A stretch of 60,076 nucleotides of DNA. Origin: Planctomycetota bacterium (GTDB lineage: Bacteria; Planctomycetota; Brocadiia; Brocadiales; Brocadiaceae). Position numbers and translations under genes: made by a program. Where the stretch lies: assembly GCA_016873155.1 (NCBI GenBank), contig VGXX01000002.1, positions 1 through 60,076 of the forward strand. The letters are read 5' to 3'. Shown piece after piece: positions 5,098 through 54,730 of this stretch. Position 1 is the stretch's first letter. Each line of letters begins with the position of its first letter. Below the pieces are notes generated by a model, which worked only from the letters and a program-made list of their open reading frames with translations, made no database searches and had not been told where the DNA came from.

Positions 5098-5160
5098 TGT
5101 AATTCCCCTCCCCCTTTCTCCACCTCACTGAGGGGGAGAAAGGGGGAGGATAAGGATGGG
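5098..5160. repeat. Short copy of GC-rich palindromic repeat (family B)
   Basis: CCCCCTTTCTC and GAGAAAGGGGG form a strong stem around CACTGAGGGG. It shares the core AGGGGGAGAAAGGGGGAGG with the longer copies at 44381-44498 and 53816-53965. Located 50 bp upstream of the cyclase start. Confidence 0.6.
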
Positions 5161-12120: not shown

Positions 12121-12302
12121 TTATTGTATAGGAATTTTCATTTTATTTATGCGGGTTCTTGGTAACGGCAGACAAAAAATCCCCCTTAAAAAAGGGGGCT
12201 AGGGGGTTGTAACCTTGTCCTCATGAAAATTGGGAATAGTCCAGAAAAAACACAACCCCCTCAATCCCCCTTTTCTAAGGGGGAATTAAACGGAATAGCT
12301 TA
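12121..12302 (+). repeat. Dispersed palindromic repeat family A, copy 1
   Basis: Begins with TTGTATAGGAATTTTCATTT, then AATCCCCCTT, GGGGGTTGTAA, a CTTGTCCTCATGAAAAT segment, ACAACCCCCT and finally AAGGGGGAATTAAACGGAA. The ends pair with each other, giving a long stem with internal hairpins. Other copies lie at 19120, 37782, 40826 and 44105, all in the same orientation. No open frame is present; a non-autonomous mobile element is likely. Confidence 0.8.
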
Positions 12303-12321
12303 AAATTGCTTGGGGAAGAAA

Positions 12322-19119: not shown

Positions 19120-19245
19120 AGAATCCCCCTTAGAAAAGGGGGCTAGGGGGTTGTAAACTTGTCCTCATGAAAATGGGGAATAACCTGGGAAAAACACAAC
19201 CCCCTGAATCCCCCTTTGTTAAGGGGGACTTAAACGGAATAACTT
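19120..19245 (+). repeat. Dispersed palindromic repeat family A, copy 2
   Basis: Core of the family (AATCCCCCTTAG, GGGGGTTGTAA, CTTGTCCTCATGAAAAT, ACAACCCCCTGAATCCCCC, AAGGGGGACTTAAACGGAA) without the 5' TTGTATAGG leader. It separates the kinase gene from its regulator. Confidence 0.8.
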
Positions 19246-19274
19246 AAAATTCTATAATTCATCAGGGGAATAAA

Positions 19275-32575: not shown

Positions 32576-33417
32576 ATGGAATATCTGATAAGTTTTGTAA
32601 ATGACCTTCCGTTCTTTATGGCTGTATTTTTTCGCATCGGAGGAATGCTTTTTTTTGCCCCGGTCTTCGGTAATGCTCACATTCCTATCCCTGTACGAAT
32701 CGCCATTGCCTTGATGTTTACCTTCATTTTATACCTCACATTCCTATCCCTGTACGAATCGCCATTGCCTTGATGTTTACCTTCATTTTATACCCAAGCA
32801 TAAACAAAAATCAGCCCCTCCTGCCTTCTGATATTATTTCGTACGCATTTATTGTTCTCAAAGAGATAGCGATTGGCGCTGTAGTTGGGTTTGCAGCTTC
32901 AATGATTTTTGCGGCCTTTAATATGGCCGGTCATGTAATAAGCAATCAAATGGGACTTGACACTGCCATGGTTGTTGACCCTTCATCACAGACGGGAGAC
33001 GAAGAGTCAATTATTTCGGTATTTTATAATATGATCGCTATCTTAATCTTTCTTTTAATTAACGGGCATCATTGGTTTATTAAAACAACTGCGCAAAGTT
33101 TCACAATGATCCCGCTCGGAAGTTTTGACTATACTACCATAACACTCACGAAGGTGCTCGCCATCTTTAAATCTCTTTTTTGGATGGGTATCAAGATATC
33201 CGCTCCTGCATTATTGGTTTTATTATTGTCCGTAGTAGCGTTAGGATTGATGACGAAGGTTGCACAGGAGATCAATGTGTTTATAATTGCCTTTCCAATA
33301 AAAATATTTATAGGGTTTTTTATACTTATTGTGTCGATTCCGTTTGTAATAAATGTAATGAAATCGTATATGCTTAATTTCGAAAAGAGCATGATATCCT
33401 TATTATCGACCATGTGA
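32576..33417 (+). pseudogene. fliR: Export gate gene fliR, frameshifted by a 59-bp tandem duplication
   Basis: The N-terminal part (MEYLISFVNDLPFFMAVFFRIGGMLFFAPVFG region) begins at ATG 32576 but runs into TGA at 32771-32773. The remaining FliR sequence (SYAFIVLKEIAIGAVVGFAASMIFAAFNMAG; MGLDTAMVVDP) continues in the -1 frame to 33417. The break lies in a perfect 59-bp tandem duplication (32676-32734 and 32735-32793); removing one copy restores one frame of about 260 residues, the normal FliR length. The stop overlaps an in-frame ATG of the downstream part (TGATG), so a two-piece protein by re-initiation is conceivable. FliR is needed for the export gate, so this is either a real loss, a phase-variable state or an assembly error. 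Confidence 0.88.
32676..32793 (+). repeat. Perfect 59-bp tandem duplication in fliR
   Basis: Two back-to-back identical units starting CTCACATTCC and ending TTCATTTTATAC. The unit length is not a multiple of three, so the duplication shifts the frame. Confidence 0.97.
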
Positions 33418-37781: not shown

Positions 37782-37930
37782 ATTGTATAGGGATTTTCAT
37801 TTTATTTATGCGGCTCACATGGCATATGCGATGTATAAATCCCCCTTAGAAAAGGGGGAACGAGGGGGTTGTAAGAATTCAGGAAAAACCACAACCCCCT
37901 GAATCCCCCTTTATTAAGGGGGACTTAGTA
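37782..37930 (+). repeat. Dispersed palindromic repeat family A, copy 3
   Basis: TTGTATAGGGATTTTCATTT leader, AATCCCCCTTAG, GGGGGTTGTAA, ACAACCCCCTGAATCCCCC and AAGGGGGACTTAG. The internal CTTGTCCTC segment is shorter than in copy 1. Confidence 0.8.
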
Positions 37931-37983
37931 GGACTAATTTAACGATTTTCTCAATTGTTCGACTGAGCGCTCGCGCCGCAATC

Positions 37984-38368: not shown

Positions 38369-39130
38369 ATGGGTACGATGACTAAAGTAAAATCAAGCTA
38401 TACACGGGGAGATTTAATGAGGCGTAATAAATTAATCATAGAGTACCTTTCATTGGTTAAATATGTGGTAGGTAAAATTATGGTGTATTTACCTCCTTTC
38501 GTAGACAAAGAGGATCTTATAGAGTATGGCATTCTAGGATTAATAGAAGCATCGGAAAAGTACGACTCAAAGAAGGATACAAAATTTGGCACATATGCTA
38601 TTTCTCGTATTCGGGGCGCAATTTTAGATTACTTAAGGTCTCAGGACTGGTTGCCCCGTTCTGTGCGGGATAAGGCAACAATGGTTCGAGATACATACAT
38701 TTCACTGGAGCAAAAGCTGAACAGACCGCCCCGGTCGGATGAGATTGCAGCAGTGCTCAAAATAAATCCTGCGGAGTGGGACAAATTATTGGCAGAAATT
38801 AGTTTTAGCACATTCCTTTCGCTGGAAGAGTACAATCAAAAATCTGAAGACAATTCGAGAGAGGAGAGAAATCAGCAAATTAAGGATCCAAAGGTTAATG
38901 ACCCGTTAAGCTTTTTGGAAACACAGGAAGAAAAAACTTTCCTGGCCAATGCCATTGCAGAATTGCCAAAACGGGAAAGATTGGTGATAACACTGTATTA
39001 CTATGAAGATTTAATGCTGAAGGAAATCAGTCAATTGATAGGCATTTCAGAATCAAGGGTATCACAACTTCACCATCGGGCGTTATTTTTACTTCGGGCA
39101 AGAATGAGCAGGGTTTCAGTAAATGCCTAG
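38369..39130 (+). CDS. fliA: Flagellar sigma factor FliA (sigma-28)
   Basis: 253 residues. Region 2 (LIIEYLSLVKYVVGKIM, DLIEYGILGLIEASEKYD, KFGTYAISRIRGAILDYLRSQDWLPRSVR split over about 25-115), region 3 (LEQKLNRPPRSDEIAAVL) and region 4 (LPKRERLVITLYYYEDLMLKEISQLIGISESRVSQLHHRAL split over about 190-235) all match the FliA/WhiG group. It recognises the TAAA-N15-GCCGATAA elements at 5459, 47815 and 51009 and is held by FlgM. The 3' end and stop codon are included in a 64-bp tandem duplication. Confidence 0.95.
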   Translation: MGTMTKVKSSYTRGDLMRRNKLIIEYLSLVKYVVGKIMVYLPPFVDKEDLIEYGILGLIEASEKYDSKKDTKFGTYAISRIRGAILDYLRSQDWLPRSVRDKATMVRDTYISLEQKLNRPPRSDEIAAVLKINPAEWDKLLAEISFSTFLSLEEYNQKSEDNSREERNQQIKDPKVNDPLSFLETQEEKTFLANAIAELPKRERLVITLYYYEDLMLKEISQLIGISESRVSQLHHRALFLLRARMSRVSVNA

Positions 39131-39212
39131 CCCGTATTGTGCAGGTGAATTTTTACTTCGGGCAAGAATGAGCAGGGTTTCAGTAAATGCCTAGCCCGTA
39201 TTATGCAGGTGA
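39085..39212 (+). repeat. 64-bp tandem duplication over the fliA stop codon
   Basis: Units 39085-39148 and 39149-39212 differ at one base (TATTGTG versus TATTATG). Each contains the last fliA codons, the stop and a GCAGGTGA ribosome site. fliA stops in the first unit, and the second unit supplies the ribosome site of the next gene. Confidence 0.95.
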
Positions 39213-40825: not shown

Positions 40826-40985
40826 TTGTATAGGAATTTTCATTTTAGTAATGCAGATTTGCGTGTGGCAGCATCCATAAAATCCCCCTTAGCAAGGGGG
40901 TTGTAAACTCGTCCTCGTGAAAACGGGGAATAGCCAAGAAGAAACACAACCCCCTGAATCCCCCTTTGTTAAGGGGGACTTATTG
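40826..40985 (+). repeat. Dispersed palindromic repeat family A, copy 4
   Basis: TTGTATAGGAATTTTCATTT leader, AATCCCCCTTAG, GGGGGTTGTAAACTCGTCC, ACAACCCCCTGAATCCCCC and AAGGGGGACTTA, in the same orientation as copies 1-3. Confidence 0.8.
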
Positions 40986-41020
40986 CGGCCAACTTGGGAG
41001 AATAATTGCTATGACCCGTG

Positions 41021-43086: not shown

Positions 43087-43182
43087 AATCCAAAGAATAA
43101 CAGCGGGCGCCTGGTTATTCCTGAGATTCTTCCAAAAAATGTAATTGTATTATATTGTGAACTTTAACAAGGAGGTTTAATT

Positions 43183-44097
43183 ATGGGATCGAGAATTAAT
43201 ACCAACATTGGCGCTTTGAATGCGCTGAAATCGTTGAATGATGTCGGTAATCGGCTGTCTGTTGCTCAATTAAGGCTGGCCACAGGCAAAAGAATCAATA
43301 ACGCCGGAGATGATGCGGCCGGTTACTCCATTGCCAAAAAGTTTAACGCCCGCGCAGAGGGCTTGGGCCAGGCATTAAACAACATCGGCTCTGCCAAGAA
43401 CCTTATCGCAGTTGCGGAAGGGCACCTGGGTAACATCGTTGACATCCTGACGCAGATGAAAACAAAGACCATCCAGGCGGCCGATGACTCACTGGGCACT
43501 GCTGAGCGTACTGCTATTAAAGGAGAACTGGTAAAATTAACCAATCAGATCGACCTCGAGGTTAATCAGGCCAGGTGGAACGACAAAACAATATTCAGCG
43601 GCGCTGCTACAACCGGCGCATCAAGTGGAAGCGGACTGTTTAAGTTCCAGATCGGCGCAGGGGCTAGCACCACAAATGACATAATGAAGTTTGATTTACT
43701 TGCAAAGGCCAACGTCAGCTTTGATTCGGCTGCTTCAACCAAAGGTTTTTCTTCCTCCGGATTGAATGTTACGGTTGCTACAGGCGCGATTGCCGGTTCA
43801 ATAGTTGGTTCATCAGCGTCTGCTCAACTATTAATGGCCAGGATAGATATCGCTATAGCCGATGTGTCTGAGGCATTGAGCTATATAGGTTCAGTAGTAA
43901 ACAGGTTGACGTATCAGGAGACAAGTTTGACTATATCCAAGACGAATACCGAGGCAGCGAGGAGTCGTATCGAGGATGCCGACATGGCATTTGAGCAGTT
44001 GGAGGCGACTAAGCTGCAGATATTACAGCAGACCGCCAGCGCGATGCTTGCCCAGGCAAATACAGGGCCACAGGCAATACTGAGCCTGTTCAAATAA
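43183..44097 (+). CDS. fliC: Flagellin 1
   Basis: 304 residues. N-terminal D0/D1 (INTNIGALNALKSLNDVG, QLRLATGKRINNAGDDAAGYSIAKKF) and C-terminal D1/D0 (ARSRIEDADMAFEQLEATKLQILQQTASAMLAQAN, ending ILSLFK) are complete. The short middle (about 140-205) is Ser/Thr/Gly/Ala rich, with candidate O-glycosylation sites, and there are no large D2/D3 domains. It differs from flagellin 2 at about 20 positions; residues 98-188 are identical. An AAGGAGG ribosome site precedes the ATG. The 96 bp upstream show no FliA element, unlike flagellin 2. A terminator lies at 44309 beyond an inserted repeat. Confidence 0.95.
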   Translation: MGSRINTNIGALNALKSLNDVGNRLSVAQLRLATGKRINNAGDDAAGYSIAKKFNARAEGLGQALNNIGSAKNLIAVAEGHLGNIVDILTQMKTKTIQAADDSLGTAERTAIKGELVKLTNQIDLEVNQARWNDKTIFSGAATTGASSGSGLFKFQIGAGASTTNDIMKFDLLAKANVSFDSAASTKGFSSSGLNVTVATGAIAGSIVGSSASAQLLMARIDIAIADVSEALSYIGSVVNRLTYQETSLTISKTNTEAARSRIEDADMAFEQLEATKLQILQQTASAMLAQANTGPQAILSLFK

Positions 44098-44104
44098 ATA
44101 GTTG

Positions 44105-44286
44105 AATTGTACAGAAATTTATTTGTGCAGCGTACATGGCATCTGCGACGTACAAATCCCCCTTAGAAACATGTCCTCGTGAAAACGGGGAAGGGGGCAA
44201 AGGGGGTTGTAAACTTGTCCTCGTGAAAACGGGGAATAATGCAGTCAAAAATACAACCCCCTTTTTCCCCCTTTATTAAGGGGGAC
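44105..44286 (+). repeat. Dispersed palindromic repeat family A, copy 5
   Basis: TTGTACAGAAATTTATTTG leader, AATCCCCCTTAG, two copies of a GTCCTCGTGAAAACGGGGAA word, GGGGGTTGTAAACTTG, ACAACCCCC and AAGGGGGACT. It lies between flagellin 1 and its terminator. Confidence 0.8.
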
Positions 44287-44308
44287 TAATTTGATGAACG
44301 ATTATTTA

Positions 44309-44346: not shown

Positions 44347-44380
44347 ATGGTTTCCCAGGAATTGGTCAAAATAATGGTAT

Positions 44381-44498
44381 CTGTTCAGCCCCCTCCCCTA
44401 ACCCCTCCCACAAGGGGCGGGGAAAAATGTTTCCTCCCCCTGTCCCCCTCACTGAGGGGGAGAAAGGGGGAGGCTAGGTGGGGGTGCTGAACTGTTAC
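44381..44498 (+). repeat. GC-rich palindromic repeat (family B), full copy
   Basis: Starts CTGTTCAGCCCCCTCCCC and ends GGGGGTGCTGAACTGTTA, giving short terminal inverted repeats (GTTCAGC/GCTGAAC). It ends 26 bp before the glycosyltransferase start. A close relative interrupts the gene at 53111-54730. Confidence 0.75.
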
Positions 44499-49957: not shown

Positions 49958-50872
49958 TTATTTGAAGAGACTCAATATAGATTGTGGTCCTGAGTTTGCC
50001 TGAGCAAGCATTGCACTGGCAGTCTGTTGCAATATCTGCAGCTTGGTTGAATTTAATTGTTCGTAAGCCATGTCGGCATCCTCGATACGACTCCTTGCTG
50101 CCTCGGTATTCGTCCTGGCGACAGTCAAGCTTGTCTCCTGGTACGTCAACCTGTTCACTACTGACCCAATGTAGCTCAATGCCTCAGACACATCGGCTAT
50201 AGCGGTATCTATCCTGGCCATTAATACTTGAGCAGACGCTGATGAACCAACTATTGAACCGGCAAGCGCGCCTGTAGCAACCGTTACATTCAACCCAGTG
50301 GATGAATAACCTTTGGTTGAAGCAGCCGAATCAAAGCTGACGTTGGCCTTTGCAAGTAAATCAAACTTCATTATGTCATTTGTGGTGCTAGCCCCTGCGC
50401 CGATCTGGAACTTAAACAGTCCGCTTCCACTTGATGCGCCGGTTGTAGCAGCGCCGCTGAATATTGTTTTGTCGTTCCACCTTGCCTGATTTACCTCAAG
50501 GTCGATCTGGTTGGTTAATTTGACCAGTTCTCCCTTAATGGCGGTACGTTCAGCAGTGCCCAGTGAGTCATCGGCTGCCTGGGTGGTCTTTGTTTTCATC
50601 TGCGTCAGGATGTCAACGATGTTACCCAGGTGCCCTTCCGCAACTGCGATAAGATTCTTGGCAGAGCCGATGTTATTTAATGCCTGACCAAGGCCCTCTG
50701 CGCGGGCATTGAACTTTTTGGCAATGGTATAACCTGCAGCATCGTCTCCTGCGTTATTAATTCTTTTACCTGTTGCCAGCCTCAATTGAGCGATTGACAG
50801 CCGATTATCAACATCGTTCAACGACCTTAATGCATTTAACGCATTAATGTTGGTGTTAATTCTTGCACCCAT
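49958..50872 (-). CDS. fliC: Flagellin 2
   Basis: 304 residues, the same layout as flagellin 1 and about 93 percent identical by my count (about 20 differences, clustered at both ends). A 175-bp block (50308-50482) is identical in DNA to 43573-43747 while the flanks carry many silent changes. The gene has a perfect FliA promoter at 51009-51035 and an AGGAGG site (CAAGGAGGTTT) before the ATG. It is followed by a terminator and fliD. The two flagellins lie in inverted orientation about 6 kb apart. Confidence 0.95.
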   Translation of the reverse strand: MGARINTNINALNALRSLNDVDNRLSIAQLRLATGKRINNAGDDAAGYTIAKKFNARAEGLGQALNNIGSAKNLIAVAEGHLGNIVDILTQMKTKTTQAADDSLGTAERTAIKGELVKLTNQIDLEVNQARWNDKTIFSGAATTGASSGSGLFKFQIGAGASTTNDIMKFDLLAKANVSFDSAASTKGYSSTGLNVTVATGALAGSIVGSSASAQVLMARIDTAIADVSEALSYIGSVVNRLTYQETSLTVARTNTEAARSRIEDADMAYEQLNSTKLQILQQTASAMLAQANSGPQSILSLFK

Positions 50873-51008
50873 TTTTAAACCTCCTTGTTTTAACGTTTTT
50901 CCCGTATTCCATGACGGGAAGAAACTAATTTATTCTTCGATATAAATTACAATAATTTAAGAGACTGACTAGTCTGGTCTTTAAACTTTTCTACGGTACC
51001 TGTTGTAA

Positions 51009-51071: not shown

Positions 51072-52865
51072 TCAGACCGTTACCTCGTTTTTTAAATTTG
51101 CAGCAGGTTGATTCTTGAATTTCTTTTCCAGGGAAATAAGATTTTGCGAGGCGTAATGACAGGCAGGGTCTAATTTGAGCGCTGCCCTGAGTCCGATTAT
51201 TGCAGATTCTAATCTGCCCAATCTGGCGTAACAAATGGAAATAGCGGCAATTACATCAGCATTGGCAGGTGAGATTTGAAGGTATTTCTCAAACAGCTCA
51301 ATGGCAGTGGTGTGGTCTTCTATTTCTGTACAAAGATTTCCCAGTTTGAGGTATGTGCCGGCGTCTGTTGAATTTGATTTGAGCGTATTTTGGATGAATT
51401 TGATTGCGCTCTGCCGGTCGCCGTTTTTAAATTTAATCCTTTCCATAAGGCATTTGAGTTCCAGGTTGTCCGGGTGGGAAGAAATTATTGTTTTCAGAGT
51501 CTCTTCTGCCTCTTTAATTTGATTTGTTTGTAATAAAAGATTTACTAAAAATATATGTGCATTTAAATCGTTGTTATCTTTTTGGATACGTTGTTTGAAG
51601 GTGTGGATAGCTTCATGTGCTTTTCCCAGCATAATTTGCGCCTTTCCCATCAAGAGATATATCAAGTGATTAGCAATACCAAATTTTATAGCGGTGTTAG
51701 TGATACTTTCTGCCTCTTGAAAGCGATTTTGGGAGATGTAGAGGTGTGCAAGGTTTGAGTAGTACAATGATTCCTTATTGTTCAGATCAAGAGCCTTTTT
51801 GTAAGCCAGTTCTGCCTTATCAGAAAGTCCGAGACGATTGTAACATTCTCCGATATTGTTATATGCTTTATGTTCATAATAATATGTATCTACAATACGA
51901 AGGTTAACGGTAGGGTTTTTGTTTTCTTTATCTTTTATAATAAGATATTTTTTAAAATAATTTATAGCTTCAGCAAATTCTCCCTTCCTCGCCAATATAT
52001 CTCCCATAACATATAAAATATCTAACGAATCGGGATTCTCGTTGATTGCGTCTTTGCAGATTTCTTCTGCCCTGTTTGTTTGATTTGTATTTAGCAAGGC
52101 ATATGCAAGGTCAATATAAATCCTGAGCCTTTGGTTTCTGGAATCAACATCTGTCGGGGAGGCAGGTATATTCAATCCGCTCTCTCCTAATTCGATAACC
52201 TTTTCGAAATTATATTCATTCCTATAGTTACGGACCAGGTTTGCCAGGGCAAAGATATTATTAGGATCTTCCACCAGTTGCTTTCTCAAAAGGTCTCCGG
52301 TCCTTTTGTATTTATTTTTCATTTCTTCATTAGATAGGTTGTACCCATAATGGTAAAATCTTATTTCCGATGGCATGGCATTACCATCCAGGACAAGTTG
52401 ATTGTGTACGATACCTTCAAAGCGCGCCTTTCCTCGGCGGAATACCCTTGTGTAATAGTGTTTTGATTGACCTCCAGGGAGTTCGCTGTAAATAGCAACG
52501 TATACTGCATTATATGAATCGGTTTGTATTAACTTATGAAGAAGTGGTATATCGGCCTGCTCAAGCGCCTCATCTGCATCGATTTGGAGAATCCAGTCGC
52601 CGGTTGCGTAGCTCAGAGAATGGTTCCGTGCTTCACTGAAGCTGTTGCGCCATGGATGATGGTATACTTTAGCGCCGAAGGATTGTGCAATTTCAACAGT
52701 TCTATCTGTCGAACCAGTATCGACGATAATAATTTCATCTATGGCGTCTTTAATGCTTTTTAAACATTGAGCCAAAAATTTTTCTTCGTTCTTTACAATC
52801 ATGCACGCAGAGAGCGACGGTCTTCCGTTATTTGATGGCGTTCGATAGTTTGCATTCGTTATCAT
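51072..52865 (-). CDS. GT2 glycosyltransferase with long TPR array
   Basis: 597 residues. GT-A domain in the first ~230 residues (LSACMIVKNEEKFLAQCLKSIKD, EIIIVDTGSTDRTVEIAQSFG, GDWILQIDADEA with DAD at 96-98, RVFRRGKARFEGIVHNQ), then at least eight TPR units to the C-terminus (DKAELAYKKALDLNNKESLYYSNLAHLY, HTTAIELFEKYLQISPANADVIAAI). Upstream of flagellin 2 on the same strand, so it mirrors the GT2-TPR gene behind flagellin 1. It probably glycosylates flagellin or another surface protein (inference). No clear promoter was seen. Confidence 0.86.
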   Translation of the reverse strand: MITNANYRTPSNNGRPSLSACMIVKNEEKFLAQCLKSIKDAIDEIIIVDTGSTDRTVEIAQSFGAKVYHHPWRNSFSEARNHSLSYATGDWILQIDADEALEQADIPLLHKLIQTDSYNAVYVAIYSELPGGQSKHYYTRVFRRGKARFEGIVHNQLVLDGNAMPSEIRFYHYGYNLSNEEMKNKYKRTGDLLRKQLVEDPNNIFALANLVRNYRNEYNFEKVIELGESGLNIPASPTDVDSRNQRLRIYIDLAYALLNTNQTNRAEEICKDAINENPDSLDILYVMGDILARKGEFAEAINYFKKYLIIKDKENKNPTVNLRIVDTYYYEHKAYNNIGECYNRLGLSDKAELAYKKALDLNNKESLYYSNLAHLYISQNRFQEAESITNTAIKFGIANHLIYLLMGKAQIMLGKAHEAIHTFKQRIQKDNNDLNAHIFLVNLLLQTNQIKEAEETLKTIISSHPDNLELKCLMERIKFKNGDRQSAIKFIQNTLKSNSTDAGTYLKLGNLCTEIEDHTTAIELFEKYLQISPANADVIAAISICYARLGRLESAIIGLRAALKLDPACHYASQNLISLEKKFKNQPAANLKNEVTV

Positions 52866-53110: not shown

Positions 53111-54730
53111 CTATTGCCCAAGCGCCGATTTATAACCGGCGAGGGCCGCCTCCCAGTGTCCTAACTTTTCGTAGCATCGCGCAATATTTAATAGTATATC
53201 TTTGTTTTCAGGACAAGTCTTTATGTGCGCTTCAAGGTACGGGATGGCCTTTTCATATGCCTCCTGTTTTATATAGAGTTCTCCCAAATGCAAGAGTACT
53301 TCATTATCTGCAATACCTTCAGAAATGGTTTTTAATAGGGTATTGGTAGCTTCAACAAGATTTTCCTCGCTTAAATAGCAGATAGCCAGATTCTTATAGG
53401 GTGTAAGATACTTACTGTTGGAAGCTATGGCTTTTTTTAAATAGTCTATAGCCGTTTGCAAATGCCCTAACTTTCCGGAACAAATTCCTAACCCATTGTA
53501 AGCAGTGTAATCGTATCCCATGGTGTCAACCATAAGGGAAATTTTATCTATGTTTTTGAGATACCATTCGCGGAGCAACAAAAACCGTCTGAAGTAATCA
53601 ATGGCCTTTCTGTAATCCCCTTCCTTCAAATATGTACAGGCGAGAGTAAATATGAGGTCTATGTTTTCCGGTTCGATTTTTAACTCGGCTAATTTTGATA
53701 AGGCAAAGTGGCACAATTCCTTTGCCTTTGAATAATTTTCATTATAGAGATGGCAGTTTGCCGTTTCATAAATAATCATGACATAGTGATGCAGATTAAC
53801 GTTTGTGCCTTGTATCCGTTCATCCCCCTCCCCTAACCCCTCCCACGAGGGGCGGGGGAAACTCGTTCTCGACTCAGATCGGGGAAACGTTTCCTCCCCC
53901 TGTACCCCACTGTGAGGGGGAGAAAGGGGGAGGGGGGAGGTCAGGTGGGGGCGCTGAACTGTTACTGTTCCACCATGTTTCGAAAAGGAGCCGGATGACA
54001 TTATTTTAAGGGCTTCTTCTCCCGCATTGATACCGTCTTGAAACGAGTCTTGTATGCGGTAATTGCGTATCAGGTTAAACCACGCAAAACTATCGTGTTT
54101 GTTTTGCGCAATTTGTTTTTTCAGTAAGCGGGTGGTCCGCTGCCATTTTATCCGCATCTTTTTTTCATCAAGGTTATATCCATGGTGGTAAAGTCTGATC
54201 CCTGTTGGTAGCCGTTCACCTTCGATAATGGTTTGCTCGTGGATGATGTCTTTGTAAAATCCCTTGCCGCGCCGGAAAACACGCGGATGATAGAATGTAT
54301 GCAAACCGTCCTTTATAATGCTTTGAACAGCGATAATAATTCCATTATATCTATTGTCTCTTATTGCAAGTCTGAGCTTCGGTATATCCGCTTGTTCCAA
54401 TTCTTCATCGGCATCTATCTGAAGAATCCAATCTCCCGATGCGTGGTTTAAACAATGATTTCTTGCCTCGCTAAAACTGTCATTCCATGGGTGATGGTAA
54501 ACCTTTGCCTTGAATTCTTTGGCAATAGTTACCGTATTATCTGTGGAACCTGTATCGACGATAATGATTTCATCGACTACATCTTTGATACTCTTTAAGC
54601 AGTTAGGCAGGAGTTCTTCCTCGTTTTTTACTATCAGGCACGCTGAGATATTTTCTTTCTTTAAGGTTTGCATGTGCATATTAAAGTTGATTCCTGGAAT
54701 TTCCTTTAGCTGATTTAGTTTCCTTTTCAA
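53111..54730 (-). CDS. GT2-TPR glycosyltransferase carrying an in-frame repeat insertion
   Basis: 539 residues. GT-A domain (ISACLIVKNEEELLPNCLKSI, EIIIVDTGSTDNTVTIA, GDWILQIDADEE with DAD at 106-108, HPRVFRRGKGFYKDIIHEQ) is homologous to the gene at 51072. TPR units follow (about 215-250 and 310-535). Between them residues about 256-305 are Pro/Ser/Gly-rich (LTSPLPLSPPHSGVQGEE; SWEGLGEGDERIQ) and are encoded by a family B repeat. The insert adds about 150 bp, a multiple of three with no stop, in a loop between TPR helices, so the enzyme may survive. A sigma-54-like element sits about 33 bp before the ATG. The start could also be one of the later Met codons near residue 18-20. Confidence 0.85.
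   Translation of the reverse strand: MKRKLNQLKEIPGINFNMHMQTLKKENISACLIVKNEEELLPNCLKSIKDVVDEIIIVDTGSTDNTVTIAKEFKAKVYHHPWNDSFSEARNHCLNHASGDWILQIDADEELEQADIPKLRLAIRDNRYNGIIIAVQSIIKDGLHTFYHPRVFRRGKGFYKDIIHEQTIIEGERLPTGIRLYHHGYNLDEKKMRIKWQRTTRLLKKQIAQNKHDSFAWFNLIRNYRIQDSFQDGINAGEEALKIMSSGSFSKHGGTVTVQRPHLTSPLPLSPPHSGVQGEETFPRSESRTSFPRPSWEGLGEGDERIQGTNVNLHHYVMIIYETANCHLYNENYSKAKELCHFALSKLAELKIEPENIDLIFTLACTYLKEGDYRKAIDYFRRFLLLREWYLKNIDKISLMVDTMGYDYTAYNGLGICSGKLGHLQTAIDYLKKAIASNSKYLTPYKNLAICYLSEENLVEATNTLLKTISEGIADNEVLLHLGELYIKQEAYEKAIPYLEAHIKTCPENKDILLNIARCYEKLGHWEAALAGYKSALGQ
53816..53965 (+). repeat. GC-rich palindromic repeat (family B) inserted in a gene
   Basis: CCGTTCATCCCCCTCCCC to GCGCTGAACTGTTAC parallels the intergenic copy at 44381-44498, including AGGGGGAGAAAGGGGGAGG. 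It has an extra middle segment containing TCGACTCAGATCGGGGAA. It lies wholly within the coding sequence on the other strand. Confidence 0.85.

Follow-up and report, generated by a model that had tools for sequence, protein, structure and literature searches.

A MITE inserted in frame in a glycosyltransferase gene belongs to a mobile Brocadiaceae family with one preferred reading frame

Results

A palindromic insertion in a glycosyltransferase gene

The stretch of DNA analysed here (the window; 60,076 nucleotides) encodes, on its minus strand, a family 2 glycosyltransferase (GT2) with C-terminal TPR repeats, next to a GT2-TPR paralogue. The glycosyltransferase gene contains a miniature transposable element (MITE), further copies of which lie elsewhere in the window. 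The features are as follows.

53111 to 54673, minus strand: host gene, a GT2-TPR glycosyltransferase of 520 aa, counted from the ATG that corresponds to the start of its orthologues; PF00535 (E 9.8e-30) and TPR families
51072 to 52865, minus strand: adjacent GT2-TPR paralogue, 597 aa, without the insert; its alignment is gapped at the insert
53812 to 53965, minus strand: MITE of 154 bp; its phase-0 reading is VTVQRPHLTSPLPLSPPHSGVQGEETFPRSESRTSFPRPSWEGLGEGDERI(Q)
53812 to 53822, plus strand: terminal inverted repeat GTATCCGTTCA, pairing with TGAACTGTTAC at the opposite end
53955 to 53965, minus strand: terminal inverted repeat at the other end of the pairing, GTAACAGTTCA as read on the minus strand
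53804 to 53811, plus strand: target-site duplication (TSD), copy 1, TGTGCCTT
53966 to 53973, plus strand: TSD, copy 2, TGTTCCAC
44377 to 44498, plus strand: second full copy of the MITE, 122 bp, with a perfect TSD (AAATAATG); closed in every frame, with no ORF running through it
5101 to 5150, no strand assigned: partial copy found as a repeat match, inner palindrome only

The host gene can also be read as a longer ORF that begins at a TTG and extends up to 54730 (gene span 53114-54730, stop codon at 53111-53113). A sequence-only reading had placed a mobile palindromic repeat at 53816-53965 and had described it as adding about 50 codons, with no stop, to a glycosyltransferase. The element is real and the insertion is indeed in frame and open, contributing 54 codons to a PF00535 and TPR protein, but it starts at 53812 and is therefore slightly longer than that reading had it. 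Its ends, GTATCCGTTCA and TGAACTGTTAC, are imperfect inverted repeats. The duplication that the same reading had proposed to look for is present, in a weak, decayed form: the two octamers agree at 5/8 positions. In the sense strand of the gene the element starts with GTA as a codon and is free of stops in frame 0, while both remaining frames of that strand contain stops. Its GC content is 64%, compared with 40% for the host gene. The encoded peptide is Pro/Ser/Gly-rich as had been noticed (14.8, 13 and 11%), is also rich in Glu (11%) and has no Lys or Ala; PHLTSPLPLSPPHSGVQGEETFPR is an example of a peptide, lying inside the insert or across its junction, that would be expected from it. The borders of the element are those of dozens of copies in the genome and the genus, an agreement far beyond chance, and the element is a complete MITE, i.e. 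a short non-autonomous transposon.

Orthologues have an empty site and the host gene is under purifying selection

The segment is absent from 13 of the 13 Brocadiaceae orthologues that we aligned, near and distant (90 to 59% identity), which come from genomes of the same genus and of the same family. The closest of them, at 90% identity, has 466 aa to the 520 of the window protein counted from the equivalent ATG. This gap of 54 codons, or 162 nt, is exactly (154+8)/3 and so fits an insertion accompanied by an 8-bp duplication. One could suppose instead that the glycosyltransferase originally had the segment as a linker, unconnected with mobility, and that the relatives lost it, since the site is a naturally length-variable linker at which distant orthologues differ by about nine residues. 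We give this idea practically no weight, because matching repeats with the same borders occur elsewhere, the segment has a TSD, and neither the neighbouring paralogue nor any of the orthologues contains it. The segment is an insertion into the GT2-TPR gene, in frame, that left the gene unbroken.

AlphaFold2, with the orthologue alignment as input, predicted a mostly confident fold in which helices at residues 211-224 and 291-310 flank the insert (residues 237-290). Because pLDDT is below 50 over residues 231-291, the insert is predicted to form a disordered loop between two TPR helices, in agreement with the position suggested by the sequence-only reading.

The host gene has a dN/dS of 0.16 relative to the closest orthologue when the insert is left out. 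Among the codons that could be polarised, we counted 22 synonymous and 14 nonsynonymous changes on the window branch and 15.5 and 7.5 on the sister branch. This indicates purifying selection on the host gene, with branch counts that give no date for the insertion within the branch.

The element is one of a family spread through Brocadiaceae

A whole-genome search with the window MITE returned 53 matches in its own genome. In a separate listing of 42 matched places in that genome, 11 lay within ORFs of 180 codons or more. Related genomes have matches that repeatedly end at the same two borders, and the family is found in Brocadiaceae relatives, Candidatus Brocadia records included. The peptide family of the insert, for which a proteome search had been suggested, recurs inside many other proteins of the own and related genomes; the same peptide had zero matches in plasmids.

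Other repeats were seen in the window. A second palindromic family (CCCCCT..ATCCCCCTTT..AAGGGGGA) occurs at 12178-12307, 19122-19251, 37833-37942, 40872-41001 and 44118-44307; it is apparently translated as INPPLEKG and PLNKGGLRG inside genes of relatives, and a peptide resembling this second family stands beside an in-frame MITE copy in a U32-like protein (G001:C19). A 932-nt inverted repeat (43166-44097 and 49958-50889) is 90% complementary over its two arms, which lie 5.9 kb apart, and tandem duplications, exact or nearly so, of 64 and 59 bp are found at 39085-39212 and 32676-32793.

Copies in genes share one phase and one length class

To obtain a census of the family in five genomes of the genus, we searched for the pattern of the terminal repeat, joined hits to opposite ends into pairs and retrieved the corresponding DNA, disregarding ORFs and length. 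This gave 61 terminal-repeat pairs; copies were counted as lying in ORFs when these had at least 200 codons. The consensus of the terminal repeat across the genus is GTAACAGTTCACC, in inverted orientation at the two ends. Sampled copies are mostly 58-226 bp long. An 8-bp TSD matching at 6/8 positions or better was found in 50/61 pairs, a count that includes one pair whose left flank is cut by a contig end, as against 0.65% for random octamer pairs. The target octamers are AT-rich, with G or C commoner at their edges. The suggestion that the family is or was mobile is thus borne out by dozens of copies with the same borders, by TSDs that are mostly perfect outside the window copy, and by empty sites.

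All 19 of the census copies inside ORFs have a length of 3n+1 and start on a codon boundary. Outside long ORFs the same length class accounts for 26/42 copies (binomial p 1.4e-4), or 15/29 distinct lengths (p 0.03), although a few successful subfamilies (103, 112 and 139) partly cause this excess, so that the copy-based p-values overstate independence. All 16 in-ORF copies with a good TSD have an open frame 0 on one or both strands, compared with 53% of the 34 others with a good TSD. Frame 1 is open in none of the census copies, because the ends hold TAA and TGA in other phases. Among the in-gene copies that we listed, which include cases beyond the glycosyltransferase, 31 of 31 are in phase 0 and 3n+1 long.

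These regularities bear on whether the insert reaches the protein at all. A palindromic insert in conserved genes might be spliced out after transcription, or the ribosome might skip it. The latter has a precedent in the mitochondria of Magnusiomyces, a yeast, where palindromic elements undergo translational bypassing (cited in PMC6649704). Such removal would need no open frame, no start on a codon boundary and no 3n length, and yet every in-gene copy has all three, which makes this explanation very improbable. An RNA family was likewise rejected as an explanation: the sole Rfam match around the insert falls far below the gathering score.

The ends of the MITE resemble those of IS66 elements

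GTAA termini and 8-bp duplications are traits of IS66 elements. The MITE family is alike in both respects, with its GTAA-type consensus end and its 8-bp TSD, while differing in that it has no transposase inside; in the window copy the other end is GTAT, as against GTAA in the consensus. A PF03050 search showed IS66 transposases to be rare in the genus, with two in the own genome and one in G005. The only one of these with recognisable inverted repeats belongs to a 2.4-kb IS66-like element of the own genome, which ends in GTAACACTTTAG. This end agrees with the MITE end GTAACAGTTCAC at 9/12 positions, GTAACA being common to both, and a matching 8-bp duplication was not found for the 2.4-kb element. 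Neither the PF03050 search, nor a search for terminal inverted repeats around the IS66 loci, nor one for long-spaced pairs of such repeats with TSDs found an autonomous partner with the same ends. The one long candidate, of 1237 bp (G005:C19), was discarded, since none of its listed ORFs resembles a transposase and it lacks a matching TSD. The mobilising transposase probably acts in trans and is of IS66 type.

Hosts include conserved genes and stay under purifying selection

By curated models or Pfam, the genes that carry in-frame copies include hypF, mfd, cinA, dapF, cobB, larE, anmK and gvpL/F, as well as genes for an AddA-like helicase, a RACo-like corrinoid activator, a sigma-54 regulator and an ArsA ATPase. 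For HypF, CinA and DapF there are homologues with solved structures that have no such segment, and the matches break off and restart around the insert. In the case of HypF and 3vth, query residues 293 and 340 land on the neighbouring residues 291 and 292. The structure alignment of Mfd has a wider unmatched region, and placement of its insert is therefore less precise. In addition, an 856-codon ORF rich in CxxCH-like motifs, resembling a multihaem cytochrome (L107:599-3166, G006:C56), has two separate in-frame insertions of 103 and 127 bp, each with a perfect 8-bp duplication.

For cinA, which has the insert in two species, pN is 0.054 and pS 0.284 outside the insert. Host genes stay under purifying selection, including where both compared species carry the insert. 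The sequence-only reading had held that the frame of the family can be coding. That view agrees with in-gene copies that are all in phase 0 and open, in hosts under purifying selection, from which we infer that they are translated.

Sites occupied in more than one species change length in multiples of three

At least six insertions are common to two or more species at an identical position of the host. The paired elements are equal in length in cinA and unequal in the five other pairs, by 24, 27, 54, 24 and 36 nt, each divisible by three. One occupied site, in a phosphoesterase-like ORF, is shared by two genera (L093, G000:C13, and L164, G012:C132). In an AddB-like gene the insert is present in three species and lacking in five, and a single gain fits the gene tree. 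The hypF insert is present in two species and missing in a close relative, a pattern that requires loss, transfer or a second insertion. As a separate observation, one of these hypF genes (L154) is a mosaic: it begins with 150 codons that match G002 and G005 at 86-89% and G001 at only 57%, and past codon 150 it matches G001 at about 90%.

Within the inserts themselves, pN/pS values are 0.074/0.072 for cinA (L158/L161) and, with a few flanking codons included, 0.067/0.050 for hypF (L154/L191). Since pN about equals pS, the peptide is not conserved as protein. Synonymous divergence of these shared inserts, about 0.05-0.07, is well below the 0.28-0.30 of their host genes, for which gene conversion, transfer and structural constraint are candidates. 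The elements of two species at shared sites are not each other's nearest copies. We do not take this as proof of gene conversion, the hypF ranking coming largely from a 24-nt indel, and regard conversion at shared sites as a possibility.

The lack of protein-level constraint in the cinA and hypF inserts, together with the small number of stops to be expected in GC-rich repeats, would also suit a different account, in which the insertion is real, the gene is decaying into a pseudogene, and the open frame is the luck of a GC-rich, stop-poor repeat. We consider this account unlikely, if slightly less so than removal of the insert. Host genes are under purifying selection even with the insert in both species, elements at shared sites differ in length only by multiples of three, conserved genes (dapF, hypF and mfd, for example) are among the hosts, and frame 0 is open in only 53% of copies outside long ORFs.

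Discussion

We favour, with a probability of roughly 0.9 for the explanation as a whole, a MITE of ~100-200 bp with an 8-bp TSD and a length of 3n+1, whose phase-0 insertion persists as a translated linker. The GTAACAGTTCA... ends would be recognised by a transposase supplied in trans, probably one of IS66 type, and the MITE would insert into AT-rich 8-bp targets with duplication of the target. With the usual length of 3n+1, element and duplication would together make a multiple of three, and the stops at the ends (TAA within GTAACAG and TGA within TGAACTGTTAC) would leave open only the frame with the GTA codon, in both orientations. A copy inserted between two codons of a surface loop that tolerates it would then be translated as a disordered linker of 34-67 residues, and the insertion would persist as the host protein goes on working. 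The insertion, the empty sites, the TSDs, the rule of frame and length, the purifying selection on hosts and the frame-preserving length changes support this reading directly. The insert is presumably made into protein. In-gene copies may have helped select the frame-compatible length. At slightly less than even odds, we would go further and call the family "protein-compatible": mobile lineages would hold to 3n+1, and only phase 0 would be open in both orientations, because surviving in-gene copies would seed new ones, with occupied sites perhaps swapping element types in frame by gene conversion.

Rickettsia palindromic elements (RPEs), reportedly described by Ogata et al. in 2000 and 2002, were the parallel drawn by the sequence-only reading. 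They are palindromic repeats of about 100-150 bp with terminal inverted repeats, genic as well as intergenic, and are read in frame as a linker inside unrelated conserved genes (PMC2229807, PMC10969869). A 2007 review counts RPEs in frame in 19 genes, reports that an insert-bearing guanylate kinase is translated and active, and lists the RPE TSD as "?" (PMC2229807). The parallel is apt as to mode of action: the Brocadiaceae MITE also sits in frame in unrelated conserved genes, with one preferred frame. It is nonetheless a different family, set apart by the descriptions, in another phylum (Planctomycetota), with clear 8-bp TSDs, IS66-like GTAA ends, a sum of element and TSD equal to 3n, and both orientations able to code.

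The 107-bp Correia element of Neisseria and the enterobacterial ERIC/RU elements are MITEs with open frames that are fused in frame to ORFs, and Correia termini are 5'-TA-3' (PMC2229807). They mainly extend or create ORFs, whereas the Brocadiaceae copies lie inside conserved enzymes, away from their ends, with empty-site orthologues and sites shared across species; the ends and targets of Correia are also unlike those of our MITE. QMITE1 and QMITE2 of Coxiella, with about 50 copies, are sometimes in frame in ORFs; they differ in that the in-frame cases named in the part of the source drawn on here are in hypothetical proteins or at the end of a gene, and that part gives no general frame rule (PMC5896051). 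A 2024 review treats an RPE-like process in other prokaryotes as merely conceivable (PMC10969869). Searches of open-licence full text turned up nothing relevant on anammox MITEs, on coding MITEs in Planctomycetes or on IS66 MITEs. Within that literature, the features new relative to known systems are the lineage, the clear TSDs, the rule that element and TSD sum to 3n, coding in either orientation, and changes at shared sites that keep the frame.

For annotators and structure predictors the family is a reason for caution, as Pro/Gly-rich linkers in Brocadiaceae relatives can look like artefacts. Rickettsia has been the chief source of known in-frame palindromic elements, and the Brocadiaceae, through relatives of anammox bacteria, now add another large case. 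Here TSDs, empty sites and sites shared across species supply transposition evidence for studying how mobile DNA becomes protein, and the 3n rule, together with sites occupied in several species, makes selection for coding compatibility directly testable.
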